From the IMG/VR virus record IMGVR_UViG_3300023184_007165, positions 1 through 23,486 of that record: a stretch of DNA of 23,486 bases; one strand, written 5' to 3'. Below, one piece after another: positions 1 through 23,486 of the stretch. This DNA is from a virus. Made by a program: the position numbers and the translations under genes. Positions within the stretch are counted from its first letter, which is position 1. Every line of letters begins with the position of its first letter. The notes under the pieces are model-generated. The model ran no database searches, was not told the DNA's origin, and worked only from the letters and a program-made list of their open reading frames with translations.

Positions 1-243
1 ATTGACCAACTGAATATTATTAATCAAATGATTATAACTAAATCTGATGAAGGTTGTGAATATCAGGGAATCACATATCCAGTGGAAAAAGTTAATATCA
101 GAGATGTATCCGGTGCTGGTGATACATTTATTTCTGGATTAGTGTGTGAATATGTTTTAACAAAAGATATAATTAAAGCTATTTTATTTGCTCAAGAATG
201 TGCAACAAAAGTAGTACAAAAAAAAGGAGTTTGCACAATATAA
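1..243 (+). CDS. PfkB-family sugar kinase, C-terminal part (heptose-7-phosphate kinase-like)
   Basis: Only the last 80 residues are in the window; the frame is open from base 1. The fragment carries the PfkB signature 2 (DVSGAGDTFISG, about residues 34-45 of the fragment), whose GAGD aspartate is the catalytic base in ribokinase-fold kinases. It ends with an Ala-rich helix and a Val-Val-x-Lys-x-Gly-Val tail, as in the kinase domain of HldE/RfaE and HldA, which phosphorylate D-glycero-D-manno-heptose 7-phosphate at C1. The family is clear; the substrate is inferred from this tail and from the nearby phosphatase-nucleotidyltransferase. It leads a tight plus-strand unit: the stop lies one base before the next start. 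An adenosine- or fructose-kinase-like enzyme remains possible. Confidence 0.8.
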   Translation: MDQLNIINQMIITKSDEGCEYQGITYPVEKVNIRDVSGAGDTFISGLVCEYVLTKDIIKAILFAQECATKVVQKKGVCTI

Positions 244-244
244 A

Positions 245-1129
245 ATGATTGAATACCCAGATATAGAAAACATTATCAGAAAAGAACTTAACTTACCAGC
301 TTGTGACGATCTATCAATTTATAAATCATTGGAAAATAAAGAATATTACACAAAAAGAATAAATGAAATTGTAAATTCTTATATCCCAAAAACAGAGCAT
401 CCTTATGATTCAAAGGCTCTATCTCAAATTGAAACTGAAGGTTATGCAGTTATTGAAAACTTCCTAACTGAAGAACAAATTGATAAAATTGTTGAACTAA
501 GCAAAACAGTTAAGGGATACAATTTCCACGTCCCAGGCAGAGCATTTAATACAAGTCCTGAATTTTACACAGATGATTTAAATTGGAATGTGTGCGCTTA
601 CAAAATGAATCATCTTTTATCAAATCCAACAATTTTAAATATTATTACTAGAAAAGATATTGTATCTTTGATGCAAGCTTATTTAGGATGTGTACCAACA
701 ATAACTTCTGTTAGTATGTGGTGGAGTAAATACACTGGACAAGAATTTCATACTCAAAAACTTCACAGAGATTATGACGATTTTAAGTTTTTAGCATTTT
801 TTATTTACTTATCAGATGTAGATGACAATAACGGACCACACGTATATTACAAAAATACTCATAAAGGATCTGAAGATATGAGTGAAAAAGTTGTAATTAA
901 AGGGAAAGCTGGAACTGCAATTATTGGAGACACATTTGCATTACACCATGGACAACCGTTAAATTCTGGAGAAAGATTACTTTTTTGGTCTAGATACACT
1001 CTCCATAAAAATAATAATTTTTACAGAAATAATGATGCAGAAAATATGTTGAATAAAAATATGTTTTTTGACATTGTTGACGAAGATATTGTAAATAGAC
1101 ATTTGCTCAGTGCATTTATTAAGGAATAA
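245..1129 (+). CDS. PhyH-like Fe(II)/2-oxoglutarate dioxygenase
   Basis: The 294-aa protein has the double-stranded beta-helix signature of the phytanoyl-CoA dioxygenase family. H174-R-D176 would supply two iron ligands. A distal histidine (H234 or H235) is followed by N240-S-x-x-R244, the usual 2-oxoglutarate-binding arginine spacing. Members hydroxylate lipids, sugars, amino acids or antibiotics using O2 and 2-oxoglutarate. The substrate cannot be read here; placement between a sugar kinase and an Mpo1-like membrane protein suggests a glycan or lipid precursor (inference). The length is normal and no signal peptide is seen, so it should be cytosolic. An AAGGAG lies 15 bases before the ATG, inside the upstream gene, so translation may be coupled. 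Confidence 0.82.
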   Translation: MIEYPDIENIIRKELNLPACDDLSIYKSLENKEYYTKRINEIVNSYIPKTEHPYDSKALSQIETEGYAVIENFLTEEQIDKIVELSKTVKGYNFHVPGRAFNTSPEFYTDDLNWNVCAYKMNHLLSNPTILNIITRKDIVSLMQAYLGCVPTITSVSMWWSKYTGQEFHTQKLHRDYDDFKFLAFFIYLSDVDDNNGPHVYYKNTHKGSEDMSEKVVIKGKAGTAIIGDTFALHHGQPLNSGERLLFWSRYTLHKNNNFYRNNDAENMLNKNMFFDIVDEDIVNRHLLSAFIKE

Positions 1130-1133
1130 ATTT

Positions 1134-1424
1134 ATGAATATGAAAGAATATTATGAGATGTATTTAACCTTACATCAAAATAAAATCTGCAGAAGATTAC
1201 ATGTTTTAGGACAACTAATGACTCTTCTATGGATTGCTGGATGTTTGTGGTATGGATATTATTGGTTTTTGATCCTAACACCATTTATTGTTTACCCTTT
1301 TGCTTGGTCTGGACATTTCTTTTTTGAGAAAAACAAACCAGCAGCATTCAAGGATCCAATAAAAGCAAAGATAAGCGACTGGATTATGCTTTGGGATATA
1401 CTGAGAGGCAAAGTTCCATTCTAA
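1134..1424 (+). CDS. DUF962/Mpo1-like small membrane protein
   Basis: The 96-aa protein matches the DUF962 (Mpo1/YGL010w-like) pattern: an N-terminal Y-x-x-x-H14-x-N, then R-x-H23-x-x-G, two hydrophobic segments (about residues 26-57), then G-H61-F-x-x-E-K-N-x-P-A-A-F near the C-terminus. In yeast Mpo1 conserved histidines bind Fe2+ for alpha-oxidation of 2-hydroxy fatty acids; bacterial relatives are mostly uncharacterised. The protein should sit in the membrane. The ATG at 1134 is preferred over an in-frame GTG at 1110, because the GTG lies inside the upstream gene while AAGGA stands 8 bases before 1134. It follows the PhyH-like gene by 4 bases, so two iron-oxygen chemistry candidates are co-transcribed. 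Enzyme activity is not shown by sequence. Confidence 0.78.
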   Translation: MNMKEYYEMYLTLHQNKICRRLHVLGQLMTLLWIAGCLWYGYYWFLILTPFIVYPFAWSGHFFFEKNKPAAFKDPIKAKISDWIMLWDILRGKVPF

Positions 1425-1456
1425 ATAAAAAAGAGGCTCAAGGCCTCTTTTTTATT
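1424..1456. terminator. Bidirectional intrinsic terminator between convergent genes
   Basis: A perfect inverted repeat pairs AAGAGGC with GCCTCTT around the 5-base loop TCAAG. Flanking A and T runs extend the pairing to 14 bp (1424-1437 with 1443-1456). Because the flanks are A-rich on one side and T-rich on the other, each strand ends the hairpin in a U-tract. It lies exactly between the end of the plus-strand unit and the end of the minus-strand HAD-nucleotidyltransferase, whose stop overlaps the right arm. Confidence 0.9.
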
Positions 1457-2816
1457 TATAGTTCTCAAGAAAATAGTTTAAATCTTCAGGAGTTCCAATT
1501 CCCCACATTTTAGGAACATCAAATGTCTTTATCTTCAAACCATCTAACAAAGCTTCATTGAATACTGGACAAACATAAAATTCATTATTTACTCTGATAT
1601 CTTTTGAAATCATACTCTCAGCATATTTAACAAAATCTTTACCTTGCTTCCAATAATAAACCCCAACTGTAGCAATATCAGAAATAGGATTCTTTTCAGC
1701 AACCTCAGTCACGAAACCATTATCATCAACTTTTGCATATGACCATTTAGGATGTGTTGCTCTGAAAGATACAATCCCAGCATCCAAGTTCTGCTCATTC
1801 ATTTTGTAGAAAAACTCTAAACTATTCCATTCAATAAACTGATCAGAATTTGCAATGACTAAAGGCTCATCATTATCAATAAATTCCTTAGCCAAAAGAA
1901 CAGTACAAGCAGCTCCCTCAGTTACACCATCAACTTCTACAATCTTACAACCGGGGCAAATTAAAGAAAGCATAGAATCAAGATTGTATTTTTCTCTATG
2001 GGATTTCTGAACAACAAAAATAAAGTTAGCATCTACAGCAAGATTTTCAACAACTACCTGAATCATAGGCTTTCCATGCACTTCAATTAATGGTTTTGGA
2101 AATGTATATCCAGCTTGTGCAAATCTACTTCCATTACCAGCCATAGGAATTAAAACATTCATCTTCTTATCTACCCACCTTTCTTTATGCTGCTTATTGG
2201 AATGAAATGAATTGTTTAGTTTTTCAAAATCAAAATCATTCGTATTTTTCACTCTCAATACTTTAGCTCCAGATTTAAAAGCAGCAGTTAAACCCGTAGG
2301 CGAATCTTCAACAATTAAAGTTGTTTCAGGTAAAGCCCCAAAATAAGACATAGCTTTCCAATAAATTTCTGGATGAGGCTTAGAATATTTAACATCTTCA
2401 TTGGATAAAATTAAATCAAAGAAATTAATAATACCCAAGTTAGTTAATGAAAGATGTACCGTTTTTTCTATTGAATTTGAACAACAAGCAATAATATACC
2501 CATTAGCCTTCAGTTGTTCAAATAATCTAATAAACTTTTGATTTCTGCTTAAATTTGACAAGGCATTTAAAGTGTATGTCTGCTTGTTTTGAAATATTTT
2601 TTCTGATGTGTCTTTATCTGTCGGCAAACCTTTATATTTTGCAAGAAGATTCAACTTGTCATATGTCTTTAAACCATCATATGTTTTTAAATGCTCTTCC
2701 CAACTAATAACAAATTCTTCACCAATATCTCTTAATGCCAAATTCAATGCATCAAAATGAATTTCTTTTGCTTCTACTAATACTCCATCTAAATCAAAAA
2801 TAATAAGCTTAGACAT
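1452..2816 (-). CDS. Bifunctional HAD phosphatase / sugar-phosphate nucleotidyltransferase
   Basis: This 454-aa protein is a two-domain fusion. Residues 1-195 are a HAD hydrolase: D8-x-D10-G-V-L holds the nucleophile and acid/base, S113 is in motif II (CCSNS), K146 in SKPHP, and E170-D171 are the motif IV acids. Residues about 219-454 are a GlmU/RmlA-type nucleotidyltransferase: G-N-G-S-R-F (227-232) is the NTP-binding loop, F-P-K241-P-L the activating lysine, and S324-D325 a metal ligand. Both active sites look intact. Removal of one phosphate followed by NDP transfer to a sugar 1-phosphate matches the late steps of NDP-heptose synthesis, and a PfkB kinase lies nearby. The substrate is inferred, not shown. 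No Shine-Dalgarno is seen; a TATAAT lies 7 bases upstream of the ATG, so the message could be leaderless. Confidence 0.85.
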   Translation of the reverse strand: MSKLIIFDLDGVLVEAKEIHFDALNLALRDIGEEFVISWEEHLKTYDGLKTYDKLNLLAKYKGLPTDKDTSEKIFQNKQTYTLNALSNLSRNQKFIRLFEQLKANGYIIACCSNSIEKTVHLSLTNLGIINFFDLILSNEDVKYSKPHPEIYWKAMSYFGALPETTLIVEDSPTGLTAAFKSGAKVLRVKNTNDFDFEKLNNSFHSNKQHKERWVDKKMNVLIPMAGNGSRFAQAGYTFPKPLIEVHGKPMIQVVVENLAVDANFIFVVQKSHREKYNLDSMLSLICPGCKIVEVDGVTEGAACTVLLAKEFIDNDEPLVIANSDQFIEWNSLEFFYKMNEQNLDAGIVSFRATHPKWSYAKVDDNGFVTEVAEKNPISDIATVGVYYWKQGKDFVKYAESMISKDIRVNNEFYVCPVFNEALLDGLKIKTFDVPKMWGIGTPEDLNYFLENYK

Positions 2817-2822
2817 ACCAGT

Positions 2823-2828
2823 ATTATA
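2823..2828 (-). promoter_or_regulatory. Possible -10 element (TATAAT)
   Basis: A perfect TATAAT lies on the minus strand just after a terminator and 7 bases before the HAD-nucleotidyltransferase ATG. Transcription from it would begin at or next to the start codon. No convincing -35 hexamer is present, so the call rests on position and the -10 match only. Confidence 0.3.
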
Positions 2829-2832
2829 ACAA

Positions 2833-2867
2833 AATAAAAAGGAGGGTTTTTAATCCTCCTTTTTATT
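2833..2867 (-). terminator. Intrinsic terminator after the methyltransferase gene
   Basis: A perfect 13-bp inverted repeat (2833-2845 with 2855-2867; core GGAGG/CCTCC) surrounds a 9-base loop and ends in a T-run on the minus strand. It begins on the stop codon of the methyltransferase gene and separates it from the next minus-strand gene. Its symmetric A/T flanks could also stop plus-strand transcription. Confidence 0.88.
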
Positions 2868-3480
2868 ACTTTCTTTTAATGAAAGCTATACCATAATCCA
2901 TTTTTTTATCAACACATCTAATTTCTACTAAAAACTTATCAGGATCTAAGTTTTCTATTAGAGTTTTAGGGCCTGGATGATAATGCACATCGTGAACAAC
3001 AATCATTCCACCAGGTGATAATAAACTTGTATTTGTCCAGAGGTCTAACATTTGATTAATAGATGCTTCAACATCAAAAATAATAACATCAAATGCAGTT
3101 ACACCTTTGCTTGATGCTAATGAAATGATTTCACCATAATCTGCTTGATTTCTTTGCATAGTATAAATATCATTGTCATTATTTAAATCTGTGATATCGA
3201 CTTCACTAACTCCAAAATATTTAGTATCAGCTGACTTACTTTCTAAAATAATACGAGTAGCTGATCTAAAACCATCTTTCCAAGCACCAAATTCTAACAC
3301 TGAAAAGCAATGACTGTAAGGTTCGAAGTTAAAACCAAACCAGCTTCTATTACAGTTAGAATATTCAAAATTAGGCAAAACAGTTCCAGGAAAATCAATC
3401 ATCTCAACTGAATCATCTGCTGCAGTACCAGTTCTAATATCGTTTGTTAAATCATTATCAATTACATCTTGTATGGTCAT
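2866..3480 (-). CDS. Class I SAM-dependent methyltransferase (Methyltransf_24-like)
   Basis: The 204-aa protein shows a Rossmann-type methyltransferase: motif I L-E63-F-G65-A-W-K-D-G at the first strand, an acidic S-E-V-D95 after the second, D136 after VIIF, and LSPGGMIVVHD (154-164) before a H-P-G turn. This resembles the Methyltransf_24 group, found next to glycosyltransferases and sugar-modifying enzymes. The target is unknown; a sugar hydroxyl or amino group is plausible given the neighbours (inference). Residues 1-55 are not recognisable and may form a cap. A TATAAT at 3500-3505, AGAGG 8 bases before the ATG and terminators on both sides make it a self-contained unit of late transcription. 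Confidence 0.78.
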   Translation of the reverse strand: MTIQDVIDNDLTNDIRTGTAADDSVEMIDFPGTVLPNFEYSNCNRSWFGFNFEPYSHCFSVLEFGAWKDGFRSATRIILESKSADTKYFGVSEVDITDLNNDNDIYTMQRNQADYGEIISLASSKGVTAFDVIIFDVEASINQMLDLWTNTSLLSPGGMIVVHDVHYHPGPKTLIENLDPDKFLVEIRCVDKKMDYGIAFIKRK

Positions 3481-3571: not shown

Positions 3572-4426
3572 TTAGGAAACGGTGATCTTTGAGACTGCGA
3601 AGTCATTGATGAGCGCAAATCCGAGCTCTTCGTAAACAACCCATCCGAGACGAAGTCTCTTTGGATCGTCAGCTGGGAGAACGGTGATGTCTTGTCTGAT
3701 TGGGAGAGCGCCAACGAATTGGGCTGGTGCAAGGACGTAGACAGCGTTCTTAGGAACCATGGTGCTGACGTGGATGTCTGCGGAGTAGATGTGGCCATAG
3801 AGACCAGTCATGAGGATATCTCTTTGAGTTGCCTCATCGAAGAATTCCTTACCCCAGTTTCTGATATCCTTGTAGCGTTGTGGGTGAAGAACAACCTTAG
3901 CACCAATGAGTTCGTGCTCTTCAATGAGGGTCAACGCAAGGTTGATGTTCTCTGGTTGAAGAGTACCGGAAACACTGATGGATTGGTCGGTTGGAACACC
4001 GGCGTTGAGGACCTTGAAGACTTCGGTATCTTCTTGTCTTTGGAGGGAGTCCTTAGCACGGACTTGAGCTCTATCGACAATGTAGAATCTTCTTTGTCTG
4101 ATCTCATTTAATCTGATTTGTGGGTGTGCAGCCAACTCGATGGTTGGGACGAGGAGTTCTTCTGCTTCAACTTCAGCGGAAGGAACACCACCACGCTTAG
4201 GAATGACGTAGGATTTAACTGCTACATCTCTCTCATAGCGAGCAAGAGCACCTTGTGGGAGCTCGTCAACCATGAACAACTTACGACCAATTGCTTGGTA
4301 CATAAGGGAGGTCTTGATTGGCTCGACCATTGCTTGTGCAAGAGCTGTGCGACCTTCAGCGGTCTCGAGTGCCATCGCAATGACGGTCTCTCTTTGCTCA
4401 TTTGAATTTCTCTTAATCATTGACAT
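3572..4426 (-). CDS. Major capsid protein (HK97 fold)
   Basis: The 284-aa protein has the features of HK97-fold major capsid proteins of large phages: an N-terminal helical region (10-50), an extended acidic segment before a conserved V-P-T-I-E-L strand (93-98), a long spine helix rich in D/R/K/E (116-142), a V-L-H-P-Q-R-Y motif (179-185) and a C-terminal beta-rich A/P-domain ending F-A-L-I-N-D-F-A. It forms the icosahedral shell. AGGAG stands 8 bases before the ATG. Base composition is clearly richer in G+C than its neighbours (29 of 60 bases over 3601-3660) and codon choice is more regular, as expected for the most highly expressed phage gene. It is the last gene of its operon. Confidence 0.88.
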   Translation of the reverse strand: MSMIKRNSNEQRETVIAMALETAEGRTALAQAMVEPIKTSLMYQAIGRKLFMVDELPQGALARYERDVAVKSYVIPKRGGVPSAEVEAEELLVPTIELAAHPQIRLNEIRQRRFYIVDRAQVRAKDSLQRQEDTEVFKVLNAGVPTDQSISVSGTLQPENINLALTLIEEHELIGAKVVLHPQRYKDIRNWGKEFFDEATQRDILMTGLYGHIYSADIHVSTMVPKNAVYVLAPAQFVGALPIRQDITVLPADDPKRLRLGWVVYEELGFALINDFAVSKITVS

Positions 4427-5126: not shown

Positions 5127-6854
5127 CTAATCCTCGATTTTTGGCATTGTCCAAGTACCCTTAAGAGCACTTTGGATGTCGAGAGCTGCACTATTGGCAG
5201 AACCAGATAATGCAGGGGAAGTAGAAATACTCATCGCTGAAGCAGTTCTTGTATTGAGTTTTTGTGCAGCTGCAGCAGCTACACGTTCTGCAGATGCTTG
5301 TGCAGATCTGAGAAGAAGTTGAGTATTCTTGATCATTACATCAGCTCTCAAACCATCTTCAAGAAGTTGATCGGCATAAGAATCGCATTCGTCAGAGTTG
5401 ATAATTCCAGCTAAAGCTAACTTTGTTGCACAGGAATATGCAGCCTTGATGCGAGCATTGGAGATTGAAGAGAGGGCATTTTGAGCTGCATTAGCACTTC
5501 CAACTAAATCTTCTACTTTAGTTTTAACAACAGTTGCATCTTCTGCAGTTTGATCAGGTGAAGCTTGATCTCCTGCTGGACCTGAGGTACCTGCTTCTCT
5601 CTTGTCATCACCTTCATCTTCTGCTTTCTTGCTGTCGCAATGTGGGCAATCAGCATCTTTATCGATACACTTGCTGCAAACACTCATTTTTGATGCACAT
5701 TTTTCGCATTTAACTGAATGCAACTTGTTGCCATTTGCTGCCATCCTAGCAGTGGACATCCCACAGCATTCACACTTCTTAGAAGCAGTGGATACTCTGG
5801 TTGTGTTGCGAGCAACTTGATCAGCATCTGTTGGGATTGCAAAATGCTCTAAGTTTGCTTCATTGTTAGATGGAATATTGCTCAATCTATCTAAATCTAA
5901 CTCATAATCTAAAGAACCGTCTTCAGAACCTTCGAATCTTGTTGCTTCAATGGAATCACCCAATTGAAGGTAGTTAGGATTCTTTGTTGGAACCTTACCC
6001 TTTTCAAATGTAACATCTTGCTCGTCGATAGCTTCTTGACCATCTAATTTAGTATGGCCAGTAAACTTCATTGTTGGATAGTCCATTTCTCCGTGGTATT
6101 GGTTCTCACTACTGTGTTGGAAACCTGCTGACGCTGGATAGGATTCTTCGCCATCAACTGAAGCAAATTTATTAAGAATTTGCTCTCTTTCAGTTCTACG
6201 AAGGATTTGTTCTCTTTCCGCACGACGAGCAGCTAAAGCTTGTCTTGTCATTGTTTTTTCTCTCCTACTAGATTTATGCATTTGGTGCTCTTCGGAATCA
6301 TCTTCCATTTCATCTTCATCTGATTCGTCATCATTAAAATGTGTGACTTCATCATCAGAATCATTTCCGCCTAAAACCTTGTCAAGCGCCTCTTGCACTG
6401 CCTTTTGTGCGGCCTCAACCATTTCAGCGGGGACTTCTATTTCAAAAGTTGCGATATCGTCATCTTCTACTTCGCTATCTTCGTCATCCATTTCGTCCAT
6501 GTCATCCATGTCTTCCATGTCGTCGGTTAAATCATCAGTGTCATCATCTGACAAATCTTCGTCTTCTTCGTTGTGAGTTTCTTTTGCGAAGTCTGCAGTT
6601 TCATGCCCATCTTCAAGATTTACAAATTTGCTTGTAACATCTTCGGAAAAACCGGCTTCTCTTGCAAGACCTGGAAGATACTTAGCTCTGATAGCTTTAG
6701 CAACCACAACGGCTTCATCACTGTTCAATGAAGCTGTGCGTTGCATGTCTGCTACACAGGAATCAAAATCTTCCTTATCTGTCATTTGAAGTTCGGCTAA
6801 ACGAAGTGCTGCAAACTTATCTTGAGATAAAGCTGTCTTCTTATTGTTTTTCAT
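5127..6854 (-). CDS. Acidic, zinc-cluster head-assembly (scaffold-like) protein
   Basis: No whole-protein family is recognised in this 575-aa protein. In order it has a helical N-terminus (1-80), a strongly acidic D/E/M-rich tract (about 95-135), a helix (138-162), a second acidic tract (165-190), a basic helix with a tandem E-R-E-Q-I-L repeat (213-227), a central low-structure region, a nine-Cys cluster (C361, C363, C364, C383, C386, C393, C396, C403, C406) that should bind zinc, and an Ala-rich helical C-terminus (445-535). Position just before the decoration and capsid genes, plus acidic and coiled regions, suggests a scaffold or inner-head protein (inference). Its ATG overlaps the stop of a 31-aa ORF (ATGA). 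The stop is TAG, rare in this window. Confidence 0.5.
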   Translation of the reverse strand: MKNNKKTALSQDKFAALRLAELQMTDKEDFDSCVADMQRTASLNSDEAVVVAKAIRAKYLPGLAREAGFSEDVTSKFVNLEDGHETADFAKETHNEEDEDLSDDDTDDLTDDMEDMDDMDEMDDEDSEVEDDDIATFEIEVPAEMVEAAQKAVQEALDKVLGGNDSDDEVTHFNDDESDEDEMEDDSEEHQMHKSSRREKTMTRQALAARRAEREQILRRTEREQILNKFASVDGEESYPASAGFQHSSENQYHGEMDYPTMKFTGHTKLDGQEAIDEQDVTFEKGKVPTKNPNYLQLGDSIEATRFEGSEDGSLDYELDLDRLSNIPSNNEANLEHFAIPTDADQVARNTTRVSTASKKCECCGMSTARMAANGNKLHSVKCEKCASKMSVCSKCIDKDADCPHCDSKKAEDEGDDKREAGTSGPAGDQASPDQTAEDATVVKTKVEDLVGSANAAQNALSSISNARIKAAYSCATKLALAGIINSDECDSYADQLLEDGLRADVMIKNTQLLLRSAQASAERVAAAAAQKLNTRTASAMSISTSPALSGSANSAALDIQSALKGTWTMPKIED

Positions 6855-7011: not shown

Positions 7012-10000
7012 TTAGTCGATCCAAGTGATGGTAACGTCTAATTTTGATGGATTCTTGCGGTTTTGAGCCACTGTAGTCTTAGCAATGTTTCCACAACCAT
7101 GACAGAATGTAGTATCCTTAACCTTGTTTGCTTCTCTGTTGCCACACTTAGGACAAACCATACCAACTGGTAATCTTAATTCAGCTGTTCTGTCAAAGTT
7201 TGGCATTGCAGTCTTAAGATAAACATCAGAATCAACAGTCGCTGCTAATCTAAATAATCCTCTTGCTTCAGCCATAGCTGGCATTCCAGCTGGAGCTGGT
7301 GCGCCTGGTGCAGGAGCGCCCATTGGACCGCCTACTGGAGCACCGGCTGGAGGCATTGGAGGCATTGCGCCAGCAGCCTCAGGAGCAGCACCCATTTCTT
7401 CTTCACCTTCAGGCTTTGCGCCTTCTTCCTTACCATTTGAAATAAGTTCAAGTGATTGGAGAATTTTGTATGCAGCACCACATGATTGACAGTCAGCATT
7501 TGAATCAGATATATTAACATCATCTGAACCACAAACTGGGCATACAGAACCCCAAGGCTTCTTATCACCAGGCTCAGAAACTGCGTCTAAATCTTCGCCA
7601 CCGGCTTCTCCACCAGGAGCTGCCATTGGGTCTGTTGTCATGGCACTCAAACCTGGACCAGCAAATGCGTTAGGATCTGCACCCATTTCACCACCCATAG
7701 GAGCTCCGCCCATTCCTGGTGCTCCACCTGGTGCAGCCATTTGTGCATATCTATTTAAAATATTATTTCTTCTTTGAACTTTTGCCATTCTGGCAGCATC
7801 AGACATGATTACAGGTTCTTCCATCGGGCCTTCCTCTGCCATTTCGCCACCCATTGTTGATTCAGCATTAAAGGATTTAGATGATCTGGAAGAAACAGAA
7901 GCTGTAATATCTCCAAATGCAGAAACGTTAAGGTCTGTGAAAGAGAATGTATTAGGGTCTACTTGAAAACCATGTCCTTGAAGAACTTCCATTGCTTTTT
8001 GTCTGAATGCATCCTCAAAGCCTTCATCGGCTGGCTTAACACCGCCAAGATCTTCTTCTCTGCAGACAAATCTGATAGTGTCAGACTTTTCTTGAGTAAC
8101 AGTCATAGCAGCTGTTCTTTCAGAGTTTTGCTTTGTTTCAACAGCCTTAACAACCAATCTTTCTGCTAAATCAGCATCTGAACAGAGTTTCTTAGCTGCA
8201 GTCACGATTGATTTTGTTGAAAGGTTGAAATTAGTAGCATAATCAGCTAACCAGCCGATAACATTTGTTGAAATGTCTGTTTTTGATGCAACTCTTTCGC
8301 CCCAGAATTCTCTTCTTGCTCTTGACTTGAGTCTTGCCTTTGTAGCACTTGCAGTTCTTGCCTTATTAACAGCAGCAACAAGAGACTTTTCATCCATCCC
8401 ATCAACTTCATCAACAACTTCATCAGGAGTTGCACCACTTTCTTCAGCTGACATTGCCATAGCAGAAACAGCTGATTTGAGGTCTTCTTTGGAAATAAGA
8501 TTTTCATCACCATCAACAGCGGATTGAAGAGCAGCCTTGAGTTCTTCTGATTTAGAAGGAGCACCCATTGCTTCGTCTGGTGAGCCAGCAGCTCCACCCA
8601 TAAGAAGTTCAGCCATTCTTGTAACGCCTTCTTTTGTCATTTCGTTTTCTTCAACTGCAACCTTAAGTGCTTCAGATAAATCAGCAGCAGAGATTGTTGA
8701 AGAAACTTCAGAACCAAGTTGTTCTAAAACAGCTGATACAGGACTTGAAGGCTCCATGTCTTTCTTGAAGAAATCAGCTCTTGCAGCATCATCTTCACGA
8801 ACATCTGCACCAGCAGCTGAAGTTTCAACCATTTCTGGAAGTTGAGCAATCTTAACAAGCTTTGCAGATGCTTCAATGATTTCATCAGGAGTGGAATAAG
8901 ATGCAACAACAGCTCTTCCTAAAGCTTTGATTGTAGATGCCATAACTTCATGAGCTGCAGCTGTTCCTTCTACTCTACACTTTTGAATTCTTTCATTAAG
9001 GCCTTCTTCAGAAACACCCTTATGAGCTTGTGCAACTAATTTTGATAATGCTTGCTTTACTTCAGCATCATTAACTTTATGACCATAGAGGCCAGCTGTT
9101 GATAAAGCAGCTTCGCCAAACTCAGCATCATCTGATCTTGAGCTATAGAAGTTACCATCAAGCTCTTCTTCTCTCACAGTCATACCATCGTTAGTTTTGT
9201 GATGTGATGCAACACCTTCGCCTAAAGACTTATAGCTAACACCTTTGCGATCACTCTCAAGTTCAACTTCCTTTACTTCGTGTGAAATGCTAGGAGCCTT
9301 GAGTGCAGTCTTAACAAAACCAGAAAGATCCTTAAGAAGATCTGCTGCAACTCTAGCGCCTTGTCCGCTTTCCATTGCAACGAGTTGGTTTTCATTTAAG
9401 ATTGGTTCCCAGCTAACTTTTTTACCATCTCTAAAACCTGCAATAGTTCCATCTGTAGAAAGAACTACACGGTTTCCAGCCCCATCTTCAACCTTAAAAT
9501 CGATTGTCACGGCGGCTGCTAATTTTTTGCGCTGTTCTTGCGCTATTTTAGCAAAATGATCCATTTGATTATTTCCCTCCGCCCTTAACGAATGGGGCGT
9601 ATTATTTCTAATATTTTTGTTTCGTTCATTAGCTAATCTAATAACGTCCTGAGTAACAGAAGCAGTAGCTGACTTATCACCTAAAGCTTCTTTAAGATTC
9701 ACTAAACTTTTTGAAAACTTTTCAAAATTTGATTCTTTTCTCGAGTTAGTGCTTGCAAAAACTTCTCTTCTACCATCACGAGAAGCCCATACCAAATGAT
9801 GTGATCTAGAAGAAGCTAATGCAACTCCACTTCCCACAGCATTATCAAACATAGAAGGCTCAACCATTTTTCCTACATTTCCAGCAGGCATATAGTTTGC
9901 TTGTTGGACATTAGCTGCAGGTTGTTGAGCTTGTTGCTGTTGTAGCTGTTGTTGGTTTAATGCCTGTGGTGCTTGACCTGAACCGACATCAATACCATCA

Positions 10001-11177
10001 TCAATCATGTCTTGCATGGTTGATTGGAGGTCTGCCATAGACTTAGTGATTTTGCCTACATGGGCTAAGTCAACATTATCTTTTCTGGCAAACATATTCA
10101 TCACAGCAACTTCTAAGAAATTGAGTGAAAGATTAATCATATCCAAGATATTTAAACCAGTTCTTGGATCGATACCTAAAGCACCTAAAACTGCATTGAC
10201 TGTAGAATTTTGATTAGCTCCTTCTCCAGCCATCAAAGGACCACCCACAAGTGTTCCAGCTGTTTGTGCTAATCTAAGAGCAGTTTTTGTAGTACTTTCT
10301 GCAACTCTTAAAGAATTCTCATATTCACTTCTATAATGTACTGGTGCGCCTTGTTGAGCTATAACAATGTTTGAAAGAATCTCACTTGCTTTCTTTTCAA
10401 CTTCACCGGCTGCACTTAAAACTTCATCAACATCATAAATCTCTTGGATTTCGCAAGTATCAAAAGCTCCATCACCAACACAAGAAAGTTCGATAAATTT
10501 TAAATCATAGTTGTATTCAAAAATAGGCTTGTTATTATCTGGGTCTTTTTTACCTTTCCATTTTTTAAGACAGGAACAATATTCTTTCTCTGTGTATGCC
10601 TTGTTTCCACATTTTGAACAAGTACCATAAGCAACAGAACATCCCATAGAAACATCGTGAATAACACCAGTACGAATGTTTCTTGCAATATCAGGATAAG
10701 CTTCTTCGTCTACAAAGAAAGTACAATAGACACAGTTTTCTTTTTCGTCCCATTCAGCATAAACCACCATACCTTTAGCTTGTTCAATATCATCATTTTT
10801 GTGGTTGGTATAAATTGGAACGCCTTCAAAAGTTTTATATGCTGGGATTTTTTCGCCTTTAATTTCTGCTTCTTTTAATAGTTCTTCTTTTGAAAAATAG
10901 TCGCCATTATGATTGACAGTATCAGCATCAATAGCTCTGGCACGAACCCATAGAAGTTTGGCATCCTTACGTGCCTTCATTTCTTTGACAATATCGAAAT
11001 CTTTGTATTTTTCAAGTACGTCTGAAGGATCTGCGTAAAGAGATTGTAATCCGATTTTAGCTGCTTCTCTCATCTGTTTGGAAGCAGTTTTAAGCATATG
11101 TTCTCTTGCAGTATTTCTGTCTTCGGTGGTTAAAAAACTATTAATTGTAATAGGACCACCTTTGGCAACTCTATACA
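7012..11177 (-). CDS. Giant prohead protease-scaffold fusion with zinc ribbons
   Basis: Counted from the ATG at 11177 the protein has 1388 residues. Residues about 75-255 resemble the herpesvirus/phage prohead protease fold: candidate catalytic H126 in Y-T-N-H-K and S177 in H-D-V-S-M-G, followed by a Cys-rich insertion (C187, C190, C201, C203) and a closing F-I-E-L-S-C strand. The rest is long and mostly helical: a Q-rich stretch near 405-425, Ala/Glu-rich helices, Gly/Pro/Met-rich linkers near 1140-1190 and 1266-1302, and two C-x2-C...C-x2-C zinc ribbons near 1213-1234 and 1342-1363. Ordinary prohead proteases have 200-300 residues, so it probably joins protease and internal scaffold (inference). 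An in-frame TTG at 11199 is less likely; AGGAG stands 12 bases before the chosen ATG. Confidence 0.75.
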
Positions 11178-11276
11178 TAAGTAAAAATTTCTCCTGCAAT
11201 CATTTTTATGCTGAAATAATTAGACATTATTATTGGTTTTTGTTCTGAATAAATGCTTAAATTTCCTGTTTAAAAG

Positions 11277-11324: not shown

Positions 11325-13697
11325 TTAAATCTTTTCTTCTTCTGGGTTTGCATTTTTTGAAGCACCAGTTTTCTTTCTAATAGCTTGCATTATTACATTT
11401 AATACATCTTGTGGATGGTCATTTAATTCTTTGTCTGTGAATCTTAAAATAATCCAACCATTAGATGCAAGTTCGATGTCTCTTCTCTTATCTTTGGCGA
11501 TTTTTTCAGGATTGTTATGCCAAATTTCACCATCAGCTTCAATTCCAATTTTAAGATTAGGAATAGCTGCATCAAGTTGGTAATCCATTGTTGGTCCTGC
11601 AGCATATTGTGCATATAATGGATAAGGCATATTTAAAGAAAGCATCAAACCATAAAGTTTCTTTTCGATAGAAGTAAACATTTGAGGTGCTGGTTTTTCA
11701 AATTTTTTCTTAGCAAATACCTCTCTTGTTTCTGGAGCTGATTGAATATAATGCATTTCTTGTTGAGCATAATAGTTAACAGGAGTACAGTTATCTCCTC
11801 CAAATGGCTGTGGAATAATAATGCCACCAAAACCATCATATTCTTCAGGTAATGAGCCTAAATAAGCACGACCAGAAACGGGAGTTAAGCTTCTAATAAA
11901 ACCTTCATGCGCTGCTGATTTAAATCTTCTTCCAGCAATCCTCATGTTCATAAGTTTTGAAGAAGAATTTAATCTTTCTGTGTAGATATCATTTACGATG
12001 GTTGATGCTAATCTATAGTTATCAGTTGGACTTGATGCCATAGGCATTCCACCCATTGGAGGAGCTGCCATCCCACCTGGAGGCGGTGGTGTTAATCCCA
12101 TACCTGGAGCACCCATTCCCATATCGCCACCAGCACCAGGAGCACCAAAACCTTGACCAGTTACGTCACCAGATTGAAAGCCAGTATTTAAATCAGTATT
12201 TCCAAGGGCTGGATTTTGAACAAAGTTAGCTCCTTGCTCAAATCTTAACCTTTCAATTTCTTGGTCTGGGTCTAATCCAAATGCTTCAATAAGAGTCATA
12301 TTGGAAATAACTCCATTGGTATTAGCAGTAACCATCATTTGAAGTTTGCCAGTATCATCTCTTAATTGAAGATCATCGAATTTGATAGTAGGAAAGATGA
12401 TTTCTTCTTGCCCTCTTTCACCTTCAATAGTAAAACCATTCCATTCAGCTACTGGTTTGAAAACACATTCCTCAACCCATCTTGCTACTTCTCTTCTGAA
12501 TGTCTCTAGTCTTTGAGCCATTGCAAGAAGACCAACTTGAGCATTACCATATGTTGGACCTTCACCATTAAGAAGAGCTTTATTAAGCATAACACCATCT
12601 AAGATTTCTTGGTCAATAAGCTCATATTCATTAGTTAATTGAAGTACTTTTCCAGAAGCTCCAACGTAATCAAAGTCAAAAGCATGGTGAGTGACAAGAG
12701 TAAGGTTAGGGTCGTTAGCAATTGCAGCCAATTCATCTTGGACAGAGTCGAGGTCTTCTTGTGATGCTGGTCTTTGATCATTTCCTACTTTGACAACTTT
12801 AACAGGGAGGATATGTCTTTCTGCAACAATCCATTGAGATTGTCTTAACTTATCTTTATATGCTAATGTAGGGAACAATGGACGAATCAAAGGAGTTCCA
12901 TAGTCTTCCCATGGATTTGAACCATGCTTAAAGTGATGAATAGAAATCGGATTAAGCTTGATTGGCTCTCCTCTGATTATAAGTTTCTTTACACTATCAG
13001 GAATAGCATCATAAAGTTCTTTTGGTTGTCTTTCGTTAACAATCTTCATTTCTTCAGGAGATGGACGATAGACATACATTCCTGGTTGATCAATAAGACC
13101 TGGAGATTTTAAAACTGCATCAGGGTTAAGAATAGAAACGGATCTCCAAGAAGCTCCATCATGTTTACATTCTTCATTCTTCTCTTCATCCCAGTTAGAG
13201 CCATGGCAATGTTCACAGTCAATAGAGAGAAGTACAAAAGCATCTCCAAGTAAGTGATAAACCTTGGATATTTCTGGCAACCATTTTTGAAAGTTAAGTC
13301 TTTGAGTTAGTTTTTCAAAATAGTCTTTAACATATGAAGATGAACATTCTAACTTCCATCCAGAGAAAGGATAGTTGGTATAGAAGTTGATTGCAGCAGA
13401 GATTTTTGGTTCGTTATTTCTCCACCAGTTAGCCCATAAATAAACTTCACGGCGAGCATTTGGAATCTGGAATGAAGAAGGAGTAAGAAATGGTGAGTAA
13501 AAGTTAGGTGCGGTGGTCATTGTATTATTACCACCGGATGCAGTTTTTTGATTTACTGAAGGTCCTAAGCCTGAAGTAATCCTTGAGTTTGCATATTGTC
13601 TGTCAAACTCAGCTGAACCTAATACTCTTTCTCCAGTTACGTTATGTGCTGCTGTTTTAAGAACTTTGGCTAATGAAGGCGAATCTTTGGAACTCAT
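11325..13697 (-). CDS. Portal protein with C-terminal DUF559/Vsr-like nuclease domain
   Basis: The 790-aa protein has a phage portal core (about 65-500): an N-terminal wing with W-A-N-W-W-R-N-N-E-P (88-97), Y-x-L-L-G-D-A-F (147-154), I-H-H-F-K-H-G-S (253-260) and a long clip/stem region to about 490. C161-x2-C164...C177-x-H179 in the wing may bind zinc. A Gly/Pro/Met-rich linker (505-555) and a helical segment follow. Residues 673-775 match DUF559, a Vsr-like PD-(D/E)xK endonuclease fold: D709, then E720-A-D722-G, H727, basic D-K-R-R-D (736-740) and G-W-I-I-L-R-F (747-753). The acidic site looks intact. The portal forms the dodecameric DNA gate bound by terminase. Shine-Dalgarno is poor; the ATG follows the upstream stop by 22 bases. 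Confidence 0.85.
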   Translation of the reverse strand: MSSKDSPSLAKVLKTAAHNVTGERVLGSAEFDRQYANSRITSGLGPSVNQKTASGGNNTMTTAPNFYSPFLTPSSFQIPNARREVYLWANWWRNNEPKISAAINFYTNYPFSGWKLECSSSYVKDYFEKLTQRLNFQKWLPEISKVYHLLGDAFVLLSIDCEHCHGSNWDEEKNEECKHDGASWRSVSILNPDAVLKSPGLIDQPGMYVYRPSPEEMKIVNERQPKELYDAIPDSVKKLIIRGEPIKLNPISIHHFKHGSNPWEDYGTPLIRPLFPTLAYKDKLRQSQWIVAERHILPVKVVKVGNDQRPASQEDLDSVQDELAAIANDPNLTLVTHHAFDFDYVGASGKVLQLTNEYELIDQEILDGVMLNKALLNGEGPTYGNAQVGLLAMAQRLETFRREVARWVEECVFKPVAEWNGFTIEGERGQEEIIFPTIKFDDLQLRDDTGKLQMMVTANTNGVISNMTLIEAFGLDPDQEIERLRFEQGANFVQNPALGNTDLNTGFQSGDVTGQGFGAPGAGGDMGMGAPGMGLTPPPPGGMAAPPMGGMPMASSPTDNYRLASTIVNDIYTERLNSSSKLMNMRIAGRRFKSAAHEGFIRSLTPVSGRAYLGSLPEEYDGFGGIIIPQPFGGDNCTPVNYYAQQEMHYIQSAPETREVFAKKKFEKPAPQMFTSIEKKLYGLMLSLNMPYPLYAQYAAGPTMDYQLDAAIPNLKIGIEADGEIWHNNPEKIAKDKRRDIELASNGWIILRFTDKELNDHPQDVLNVIMQAIRKKTGASKNANPEEEKI

Positions 13698-17672: not shown

Positions 17673-18620
17673 TTAGTTTTTGCTATTAAATAATTCGTCA
17701 ACCCATTCTGGATCGCCATAGCCAAGCTCATTTTTCCAGTAATCTTTGCATCTGTTGATGTTTGCAGAATCAAGTTCAGCGACTTTGATAATGCTTGCAA
17801 CAACTTGCTTCTTGGTGCTAACATTGAGGTTAGAAGCCATAACTTGCTTGATTTCAACAACTTGTGGAGCTTCAGTAACAGGAGTATTGAGCATAGCTTC
17901 AACATATTCAGCTGGGAAACCAGAAGCAATGGCTTTTGCAGCAAATGCTTTCTTTGCATTGTTGTTAAGAGCAGAAGCCTTTACAAATGTTGGTTGAGTA
18001 TTCTTTGAAGCAGTCTTTTGAGCAACTGCAGTTCTTGCTTCATTCTTTGCAGCAACCTTTACAAGGTTTTCTCTGTAAGCTCTTCTTTGATTCAAAGTAG
18101 CTTGATGAGCTTGTGCAGTCTTAATGTTGGTTTCAATTTGAGTAGCTAATCTAACTCTTCTTTCATGGCGAGCTGCTAAAATTGTGTTAGCAAGTCTCTT
18201 ATCACCAGAAGCGATAGCTGCTTCTACTGCATCAGCTGAAAGTTGTGATGGGTGATTGAAAATGATTTTTGCTGTCTTTTTCATTTCAGCTTCTTCATCT
18301 TCATCTTCTTCATCTTCTTCATCAGATTCGTCTTCTTCAGACTCATCTTCATCTTCCATATCTTCATCGTCTTCATCCTCAGCATAAGCGGCCCATTTAT
18401 TGCCACCTTCTCTGTCGTTGGATTCAGCTTCTTCATCAAATTCTTCTGGATACTTATCATTTAAAGCGTCTAAAAGCTCATGTGGAACTTTCTTATCACC
18501 TTCGCCATCTTTGACAGCGGCTAATCTCTCATTGAATGTGTCCCAGTTAATACCTGTAAAAACAAGTTCAGAATCCAATCCTGATTCTTGAAACTTATTA
18601 GGGAAAATTCTATCGGCCAT
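17673..18620 (-). CDS. Uncharacterised acidic head-module protein, 315 aa
   Basis: No family is recognised. The N-terminus (1-60) is globular and moderately acidic; about 65-112 is almost entirely Glu and Asp; then M-K-K-T-A-K begins a basic, Ala-rich helical half (112-285) holding many K/R-x-A motifs. The C-terminus (C-K-D-Y-W...W-V-D-E-L-F) is a distinct small domain. The acidic-then-basic layout resembles scaffold or internal head proteins and mirrors the 575-aa protein near the capsid gene. AGAGGT stands about 11 bases before the ATG. A hairpin follows the gene and a repeat-bearing gap precedes it. A DNA-mimic or chaperone role for the acidic tract is possible but unsupported. Confidence 0.6.
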   Translation of the reverse strand: MADRIFPNKFQESGLDSELVFTGINWDTFNERLAAVKDGEGDKKVPHELLDALNDKYPEEFDEEAESNDREGGNKWAAYAEDEDDEDMEDEDESEEDESDEEDEEDEDEEAEMKKTAKIIFNHPSQLSADAVEAAIASGDKRLANTILAARHERRVRLATQIETNIKTAQAHQATLNQRRAYRENLVKVAAKNEARTAVAQKTASKNTQPTFVKASALNNNAKKAFAAKAIASGFPAEYVEAMLNTPVTEAPQVVEIKQVMASNLNVSTKKQVVASIIKVAELDSANINRCKDYWKNELGYGDPEWVDELFNSKN

Positions 18621-20098: not shown

Positions 20099-21214
20099 TT
20101 ATTTTCCTGCTAATTCTTTTTTACAAACATCTAATGCATTAACAATAGTCTTGTCCATATCATAATATTTATAGCTTCCTAATCTTCCACCAATAATAAG
20201 ATTCTTTAGTCCATCTGCTTCAATGCGATATTTTTCATATCTTTCATTATTTAAATAATCATTAATAGGATAATAAGGTTCTTCAGAAAAGTTTTTGTCA
20301 TAAGATTTAGAATATTCGAAAGTAATATAATCCTTTTCTGACTTACTAAAAGTGAAATATTTATGCTGTATTATTCTTGTCCATTCAATATTTAATGAAG
20401 GATATGTAACGAGAGCAGTTCCTTGAAAATCTGAGTTAATTTCATAGTGTTTATGAGTTAAAGTTCTGTATTCTAAATCACCAAATCTATATTCAAAAAG
20501 TTTATCTATAGGGCCAGTATAAACAACTTTTTCTGCTAATGAATTAAAATAAGATTTATCACTGAAATAATCACAATCTAAATTAACTTCAATATCTTTT
20601 AATAGGTTTTTAAATATAGCTGTGTATCCATCAATTGGCACACCTTCATAAATATCAGCATCAGAATAATATCTATCGTTATAGTTTAATCTGAGTGGTA
20701 TTCTTTGTGCGATTGATGCTGGTAAGTGTTTTGGATCTCTTCCCCATTGCTTTTTTGTATATCCATAAAAAAACATTTCGTACAAAGTTTTACCCATAGT
20801 GCTTAAGCAATATTCTTCAAAGTTTTGTGGGTTTGGAATATTTATTTTATCTTGATTGATTTTATTGATTGCATTTTGTGGATTATATGCATCAGGCCAT
20901 ACTTGTTGTATTGTGCTTAAGTTGATTGGCAGAGAATATATTGTGTTATTGATATTTGCTTTATTTCTCAATGTAAAATTATTGAAAGTTGCAAATTGAT
21001 TTATATAATCCCAGACATATTTTAAAGAAGTATGAAAAATGTGAGGACCATATTTGTGAATGTGATAGTCTTCATATGGTTCTGAATAACAGTTTCCACC
21101 TATATGATTTCTTTTGTCAATTACTAATACTTTTTTATTAAGTTTTTTTGCTTCATATGCAAAAATGGAGCCGAATAAACCGGCTCCAACAACAAGATAA
21201 TCATATTTTGGCAT
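20099..21214 (-). CDS. glf: UDP-galactopyranose mutase
   Basis: The 371-aa protein is a full-length UDP-galactopyranose mutase, the flavoenzyme that interconverts UDP-Galp and UDP-Galf, the donor of galactofuranose for surface glycans. Visible are the FAD-binding G10-A-G12-L-F-G15 with a downstream I-D-K-R, the conserved G-P-H-I-F-H (56-61), K-K-Q-W157-G, R171, Y182-Y183, R280 and the C-terminal G-G-R344-L-G-S-Y-K-Y-Y-D-M-D. All key residues look present and the length is typical of bacterial enzymes. It is cytosolic. It sits between structural genes with an 18-base gap upstream and no clear Shine-Dalgarno: a metabolic cargo gene embedded in the late operon, probably acquired from a bacterium (inference). 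Confidence 0.95.
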   Translation of the reverse strand: MPKYDYLVVGAGLFGSIFAYEAKKLNKKVLVIDKRNHIGGNCYSEPYEDYHIHKYGPHIFHTSLKYVWDYINQFATFNNFTLRNKANINNTIYSLPINLSTIQQVWPDAYNPQNAINKINQDKINIPNPQNFEEYCLSTMGKTLYEMFFYGYTKKQWGRDPKHLPASIAQRIPLRLNYNDRYYSDADIYEGVPIDGYTAIFKNLLKDIEVNLDCDYFSDKSYFNSLAEKVVYTGPIDKLFEYRFGDLEYRTLTHKHYEINSDFQGTALVTYPSLNIEWTRIIQHKYFTFSKSEKDYITFEYSKSYDKNFSEEPYYPINDYLNNERYEKYRIEADGLKNLIIGGRLGSYKYYDMDKTIVNALDVCKKELAGK

Positions 21215-22232: not shown

Positions 22233-23486
22233 TTATCTTATTCTTGTGCCTGTATTGATTAACCTTGACTTAGGTAGGTTGACAATAATCTTAGAAAAGA
22301 ATGCTTCATAAGCTACTGCTGCAATAGCATCGCAAATATCATCGTGATACCCTTTTAAAGATTCGATAATAAATCTATTGCCTTTCCATTTCTTTTGAAG
22401 AAATAAGAACTGAGTTTTAGCCTCTTTAATCTCATCTAGAGGCATTTCATTTCCCCTAGCATCAATATAAGTTCCACCCGAAATATCATAAATATCAATT
22501 CGGTCTTCTCTCAATAAAGTTGCTAGTTCCGTATATATGCCTTCTTTATATTGCTTATTGAATGTTTTTTCGACAATTGGTATTCTCATATTTCTTAATT
22601 TGATAACTGAAGATTGAGAATTCCATTGGTCTATACTTACTTGTTTAAATCTAAATCTTTTATGAAGTGAAAGAATATAGTCTTCTACTTCTTTTTCTGG
22701 TACTGGTTGATTTTTGGTTTTAGGATTCCAGAAATGAATATGGTCTATAACAACTCTTCTCAAAGGTCTACCGTCTTGACCATTAGTTCCATACATGATT
22801 TCACAGTGACCAACAGCTAAAGCATAATAGTCTGAAGTTCTTGCTGGGTCTATATGGCAGAAATAATCATAGAATCCATTCCCTTCTTCTCTTCTTTTAA
22901 CCATAGAAGAAGATGAAAACATCCTATTAACTGAATCTTCGGAAAACATAGGATCTGAGGATGAAGCACCAAACTCAGCACCATATTGCATTTGATATTC
23001 AGTGCCATTTTTAAGTTTTTCAGATTCTAGAAAGTCTCTATCAATATTTGGATTTACAAGCCAAGTAGGACCACGCATAACAAGAGTTGAAGGGTCGTCT
23101 TGTCTATTTTCATGCAAATCATAAAGCAATCCAATAGGTCCTTTAGGGTTGGAAAGCATCATCATCTTTCCATCTCTACCAAAAGTTGCAAGAGAAGGTT
23201 TTAGGTCATTATATAAATCGTAATCAAGTCCAGAATCAGGATTATCACCAGCCATAGCAGCAATTTCGTCCATGATTACACACCAACAAGTAAGACCAAC
23301 GAGACCAGAAGCACTACTAGAACCGCATTTTAAAACTAATGAACCAGAAAATAAATTAAGTCCGGCTGTATCTCTTCTTTCATTTTCTTTACGGTCATTT
23401 TCAGTAAAGAATCGCATTTCAAGTTCAGTGTCTTTGCCAATATAAGGTTGAAAGAATGGAGATGCTAAGACTGTTTGCTTGATTTT
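22233..23486 (-). CDS. terL: Terminase large subunit, C-terminal part
   Basis: The frame is open to the window edge, so 417 C-terminal residues are seen and the N-terminal Walker A part lies outside. The ATPase remainder has the Walker B V-I-M-D73-E74 (fragment numbering) and the coupling motif M-M-L-S-N-P-K-G (109-116). The RNase H-like nuclease domain follows: H-I-D213-P-A-R-T-S-D, V-S-I-D286-Q-W and H-D382-D383-I-C-D386-A-I, the acidic residues that bind metal. TerL pumps DNA through the portal and cuts the concatemer. An internal Met codon at 23417 is not the start, since recognisable sequence continues upstream. It is the most upstream visible gene of the late minus-strand block. Confidence 0.93.
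   Translation of the reverse strand, partial: KIKQTVLASPFFQPYIGKDTELEMRFFTENDRKENERRDTAGLNLFSGSLVLKCGSSSASGLVGLTCWCVIMDEIAAMAGDNPDSGLDYDLYNDLKPSLATFGRDGKMMMLSNPKGPIGLLYDLHENRQDDPSTLVMRGPTWLVNPNIDRDFLESEKLKNGTEYQMQYGAEFGASSSDPMFSEDSVNRMFSSSSMVKRREEGNGFYDYFCHIDPARTSDYYALAVGHCEIMYGTNGQDGRPLRRVVIDHIHFWNPKTKNQPVPEKEVEDYILSLHKRFRFKQVSIDQWNSQSSVIKLRNMRIPIVEKTFNKQYKEGIYTELATLLREDRIDIYDISGGTYIDARGNEMPLDEIKEAKTQFLFLQKKWKGNRFIIESLKGYHDDICDAIAAVAYEAFFSKIIVNLPKSRLINTGTRIR

Follow-up and report, generated by a model that had tools for sequence, protein, structure and literature searches.

The window (the whole stretch of DNA that was analysed, a 23.5-kb virus record of 23,486 nucleotides) holds a phage head module in which the terminase is followed by smaller genes, the portal, the protease/scaffold, two proteins of 575 aa (acidic) and 213 aa, and then the major capsid protein. 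The ordered occurrence of the terminase, portal, protease and capsid genes on a single strand is the genomic place typical of a tailed-phage portal. The principal genes and the profile matches that identify them are as follows:

22233..23486, minus strand: terminase large subunit, 5' end lost at the contig edge (PHROG terminase large subunit, 1.1e-19)
11325..13697, minus strand: portal-nuclease fusion gene, 790 aa, single open frame (PHROG portal phrog_16240, 8e-39; Pfam Portal_Mu)
7012..11199, minus strand: 1395-aa fusion of a head maturation protease with a long scaffold-like region (PHROG head maturation protease, 8.7e-16)
3572..4426, minus strand: major capsid protein (PHROG major head protein, 4.4e-67)

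An earlier note on this DNA, made from the letters alone, had described the portal frame as open through a linker into a nuclease domain, and the fusion is indeed encoded by one uninterrupted frame (13697..11325, minus strand), in which Pfam Portal_Mu matches residues 233-444 (1.3e-9). The 1395-aa protease adjoins the portal downstream and its residues H133 and S184 are kept in at least 97% of homologues; its scaffold-like part exceeds 1000 aa and bears Cys-rich zinc-ribbon-like stretches, two of them near the C terminus (window 7012-11199, minus strand). Beside and inside the head module (window 1-3480 and 20099-21214), several genes appear metabolic by eye (kinase-like, dioxygenase-like, HAD plus nucleotidyltransferase-like, methyltransferase-like and UDP-galactopyranose mutase-like) and may have surface-sugar functions.

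The portal-nuclease protein can be divided into four parts:

12225..13460, minus strand: portal core, residues ~80-491, of stem/wing/crown fold (AF2 model and VIA-align to solved portals)
12030..12224, minus strand: disordered Gly/Pro/Met-rich linker, residues 492-556 (pLDDT ~30; length and sequence vary among relatives)
11685..12029, minus strand: inter-domain segment, residues 557-671, with a helix, a Y[KR]-x-A-[SA] motif and a 'PVTGRG' patch (alignment of relatives)
11364..11678, minus strand: DUF559/Vsr-type nuclease domain, residues ~674-778 (Pfam, predicted fold, conservation in relatives)

In the AF2 model of the full-length 790-aa protein (pLDDT 63), the portal occupies residues ~76-493 and is followed by disorder (~492-556), a helix (557-585) and the nuclease (676-776). 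The portal part of the model aligns with solved portals, including those of lambda, T4, G20C and HK97 (VIA-align Z 16-20), and the alignment extends to residue 490-499, matching residue 506 of lambda and 510-516 of T4. The Y[KR]-x-A-[SA] motif is conserved in the inter-domain helix, yet absent from nearly all of the deep subclade.

Identification of the C-terminal domain is based on profiles as well as on fold. Pfam DUF559 (PF04480) matches residues 703-773 (4e-8, 33.5 bits vs a cut-off of 20.6) and scores 31-48 bits in the records of relatives, while REase_MTES_1575 (PF18741) matches residues 704-773 (7.6e-9) with 36.0 bits, slightly under its cut-off of 38.2, which is exceeded in three relatives (L046, L124 and L139). 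A predicted model of residues 553-790 (pLDDT 77) shows the Vsr-type order of helix, three-stranded sheet, helix, strand and helices. Comparison of the nuclease model with solved structures gave Z 9.5 for the DUF559-like NGO0050 (3hrl; rmsd 1.8 over 93 residues), Z 9.3 for the homing endonuclease I-Bth0305I (rmsd 2.4 over 96 residues) and Z 7.5 (1cw0) and 6.6 for Vsr. Plain Foldseek ranked I-Bth0305I at the top with a modest E of 7.7e-3, and a profile search of PDB sequences, independent of the fold search, recovered 3hrl (E 8.6e-6) and 3r3p (I-Bth0305I; 9.5e-5). The fold search also matched FASTKD4 and mitoribosomal chains, and a search of BFVD matched DUF559 and other endonuclease proteins, none of them named as a portal. 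Predicted fold and fold search thus assign the domain to the Vsr/DUF559/I-Bth0305I group, as the earlier note had proposed; this identity stands since the fold search gave endonuclease similarity, and the proposed span (11373-11681) is correct to a few residues. NGO0050 (3hrl), Pfam DUF559 and REase_MTES_1575 have the fold and motif pattern in common with the portal domain but are not on a portal. I-Bth0305I (an EDxHD homing endonuclease) and Vsr (the E. coli mismatch nicking enzyme) have the fold and active-site layout in common with it, although they serve mobile-intron and repair functions and their sequence similarity to it is weak.

The residues expected at the active site are retained among relatives:

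11664..11666, minus strand: E678, acidic residue of the first helix (invariant, 48/48 sequences covering it)
11571..11573, minus strand: D709, metal-ligand position, Vsr D51 equivalent by motif (55/55 aligned)
11532..11540, minus strand: E720-A721-D722 acidic motif (E720 in 55/56, the exception, L208, being an intein boundary; D722 in 56/56)
11517..11519, minus strand: H727, Vsr H69 equivalent by motif (56/56)
11478..11492, minus strand: D736-x-x-R739-D740 (D736, R739 and D740 each in 56/56)

E678, in the first helix, is part of this nuclease domain, and G747, W748 and R752 are likewise unchanged among the 56 distinct sequences. The pairing with D51 and H69 of Vsr (PMC11879112) or with residues of I-Bth0305I is one of motif position, as opposed to residue-by-residue superposition. 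All residues that had been named beforehand (D709, E720-x-D722-G, H727 and GWIILRF) are numbered exactly; the catalytic residues are kept across deep divergence, which supports the active enzyme that had been deduced from the acidic ones. Judged by its sequence, the domain is complete, with an intact predicted active site. FASTKD4, which is Vsr-like and binds nucleic acid with no evident catalysis (PMC11879112), offers a parallel for a catalytically silent DNA clamp, in which the nuclease fold would be kept solely for holding or organising portal-bound DNA. Nevertheless, a domain that only bound DNA should have lost some of the catalytic positions, all of which are retained across portals that are ~42% identical, and this explanation is improbable.

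With the portal as query, the same portal-nuclease architecture was found in 56 full-length IMG/VR relatives; 30 of the full-length set, the window included, differ by more than 5%. The fetched loci contain 80 distinct nuclease-bearing portal frames from many separate contigs, which refutes an assembly artefact or chance readthrough in one contig, a reading of negligible probability that the metagenomic origin alone would favour. Deeper scans used portal-core motifs alone and reached portals ~42-45% identical, and every complete one among the best 80 matches that were kept carries the nuclease domain. The nuclease-bearing portals group as a single clade (SH-aLRT 96) of uncultured jumbo phages in a tree built from residues 110-345 of the core, and this clade is sister to the portals of the Bacillus phage G group. 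Only two clade members were scored without the domain: L048, which has a stop in the linker, and L215, which is truncated at the end of its contig. The stop in L048 is a single in-frame TGA (L048:9672-9674) with the nuclease frame intact behind it, and is a sequencing error, a mutation or a genuine split gene.

Among the 30 sequences, conservation of the nuclease domain is similar to that of the portal core, and segments 501-556 and 621-660 are not conserved. Values of dN/dS, which are rough because several dS are near saturation, are 0.007-0.05 for the nuclease in most close pairs (highest 0.12), 0.017-0.083 for the portal core and 0.05-0.36 for the segment between them. Core and nuclease distances correlate, both as tree paths (r 0.97) and as p-distances (r 0.92 without the outlier L124; 0.84 in the inner clade alone), and therefore give no sign of domain swapping. 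From these comparisons of sequence, the nuclease domain is inherited vertically with the portal and constrained like its core. The idea of a captured homing-type nuclease, raised in the earlier note, thereby survives as a possible ancestry, for which the I-Bth0305I fold speaks; as a description of the present domain it fails, the domain being fixed and co-inherited and not sporadic. That an EDxHD-type homing endonuclease is still spreading its own coding sequence here is highly improbable: although I-Bth0305I is among the nearest solved structures, the clade holds no empty sites, the domain is present in every complete member but L048, the portal and nuclease histories agree, Pfam detects no separate DNA-binding region beside the nuclease domain, and the real LAGLIDADG inteins in the same portals look quite different.

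These inteins touch the nuclease domain itself. In the L208 portal (L208:3776-8251), an intein (residues ~1014-1382) lies inside the domain, beginning directly after the active-site E and ending directly before CDG, that is, between both acidic residues. Inteins usually occupy indispensable motifs. Further LAGLIDADG sequence interrupts the core of the same portal, and intein-like insertions occur at several sites in the portals of L124, L139 (a frame of 1841 aa), L200, L206, L207, L212, L216 and L218; intein/LAGLIDADG domains are confirmed by Pfam in L124, L139, L208 and L218.

Portal gp14 of Bacillus phage G (YP_009015325.1), a close known counterpart, has a homologous core (31.5% identical across 57% of the query), and the packaging module of phage G is likewise ordered terminase, portal, major head protein. 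The phage G portal and its IMG/VR relatives differ in having no nuclease domain and end after a Pro/Gly-rich tail. One phage G-type portal (L077:7995-11042) bears a different C-terminal extension of ~440 aa (residues ~575-1016) with a CxxC motif, which shows that other extensions occur at this place. A second DUF559 gene was sought in the long genomes, where the portal copy alone was found, and a search for a cellular or proviral source gave no relative in genome_contigs. Searches by tblastn with the whole portal and its C-terminal 231 aa against 50,697 phage records showed no fusion among the matches listed. A link to the published bS21 phages (PMC9723584) through ribosomal protein S21 was considered and is not claimed, S21 being found only in G003.

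Portals are dodecamers at one capsid vertex. The position at the DNA gate that the earlier note had given to the nuclease agrees with portal topology and can be refined to the capsid-lumen side: the linker follows the crown part, so the nuclease should hang in the capsid lumen, and would on this topology lie inside the head. The T4 portal has stem, wing and crown within the capsid, with crown and wing contacting DNA, and T4 tolerates GFP on up to ~half of its portal subunits, C-terminal fusions included (PMC9958956); a C-terminal portal fusion is therefore workable. The explanation that we favour, tentatively and at somewhat less than even probability, is a tethered portal nuclease that processes the phage's own DNA at the lumen mouth. 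Twelve metal-dependent endonuclease domains of Vsr/DUF559 type would be flexibly tethered where the channel opens into the capsid lumen and would do a core job on phage DNA at the gate, during packaging or just before exit, with DNA ends, branches and damaged or mismatched duplex as candidate substrates. Such a gate role is favoured because the domain is found throughout the clade, evolves under a constraint like that of the core, gives no sign of swapping and, in L208, is interrupted by an intein at its active site; the constraint and the universal presence in particular suggest a core job on phage DNA. Because a general nuclease free to act within the head would degrade the genome, the domain would have to be held in check, whether by its specificity, by metal, by DNA modification or by geometry. 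The hazard of an active lumen nuclease follows from Staphylococcus nuclease placed in the T4 head, which digests the packaged genome after calcium addition (PMC9026906).

Precedents for nucleases at the portal/head end of packaging are found in T4, in which the portal-bound resolvase gp49 (endonuclease VII) frees branched DNA stalled in packaging (PMC9958956) and the head-completion nuclease gp4, of REase fold, has a nuclease activity required for packaging (PMC7824862). However, both are separate proteins (gp49 of another nuclease family, gp4 TnsA-like), and gp49 works on DNA still outside the head and not in the lumen, which counts against the gate-lumen reading. A bolder claim, which we hold to be more doubtful, is that the portal itself is an essential DNA-processing enzyme in a whole jumbo-phage lineage, its luminal ring of tethered Vsr-type nucleases serving to edit, trim or resolve the genome on entry or before it leaves the head; phage G does without the nuclease domain, which counts against the favoured gate role. 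In a separate line of enquiry, RuvC in phage G and its absence from five long nuclease-portal genomes looked complementary at first, as if the portal nuclease replaced a missing resolvase. RusA-like resolvases were matched in four of the five long genomes (two over the cut-off) and a RuvC search of G-like fragments found none, so this idea is unsupported; searches for endonuclease VII and T7 endo I gave no matches, and their controls gave no signal either.

The chief competitor of the lumen-mouth nuclease is an injected effector, for which the portal would serve only as a means of entry into the head: the prohead protease would cut the tether, and the nuclease would stay in the lumen until it left together with the genome and attacked DNA of the host, of plasmids or of rival phages. 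Enzymes are likewise attached to portals in the fusions described by Iyer et al. (2017), with PBECR RNase, 2H phosphoesterase and InPase domains; these have other folds and predicted activities and are interpreted there as virion-carried effectors (PMC5512222). In addition, the neighbouring head maturation protease keeps its H and S, and in the subclade of the window [KR]-x-A-[SAQ] motifs lie on either side of the portal core, being enriched at residues 1-62 and 557-600; the 30 sequences have none in the linker and one in the nuclease domain. In a 379-kb relative, the head module has 29 such motifs against 6 expected, compared with 54 against 31 elsewhere. The motif is several-fold enriched in head-module proteins (window 5127-6854, 7012-11199, 11325-13697 and 17673-18620, and in L129) and is absent from the terminase and the major capsid protein. 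It is a candidate prohead-protease site or scaffold-binding motif, and cleavage of the tether at it is a guess. However, the motif is absent between crown and nuclease in 19 of the 21 deep-subclade loci, where the nuclease is nevertheless retained, and for this reason release is ranked below retention. Furthermore, strict vertical inheritance without swapping is unusual for effectors and unlike the polymorphic ones. Release as an effector is thus unlikely, though it should be taken seriously.

A Vsr/DUF559 portal fusion was not found in the accessible portion of Iyer et al. (2017; PMC5512222), and a literature search, conducted mostly outside subscription journals, returned no report of such a nuclease on a portal. 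Thus, portal-enzyme fusions are known, but no description was found, within the literature searched, of a Vsr-type nuclease that is fixed throughout a portal lineage. Portals are usually viewed as passive gates, and DNA cutting is regarded as the task of the terminase; in this phage lineage, the gate has a nuclease attached throughout, and that nuclease is constrained like the portal core. Should the domain be active inside the head, the question arises of how a phage can house a nuclease next to its genome, and the domain would give access to the way in which jumbo phages complete packaging or arm the virion.
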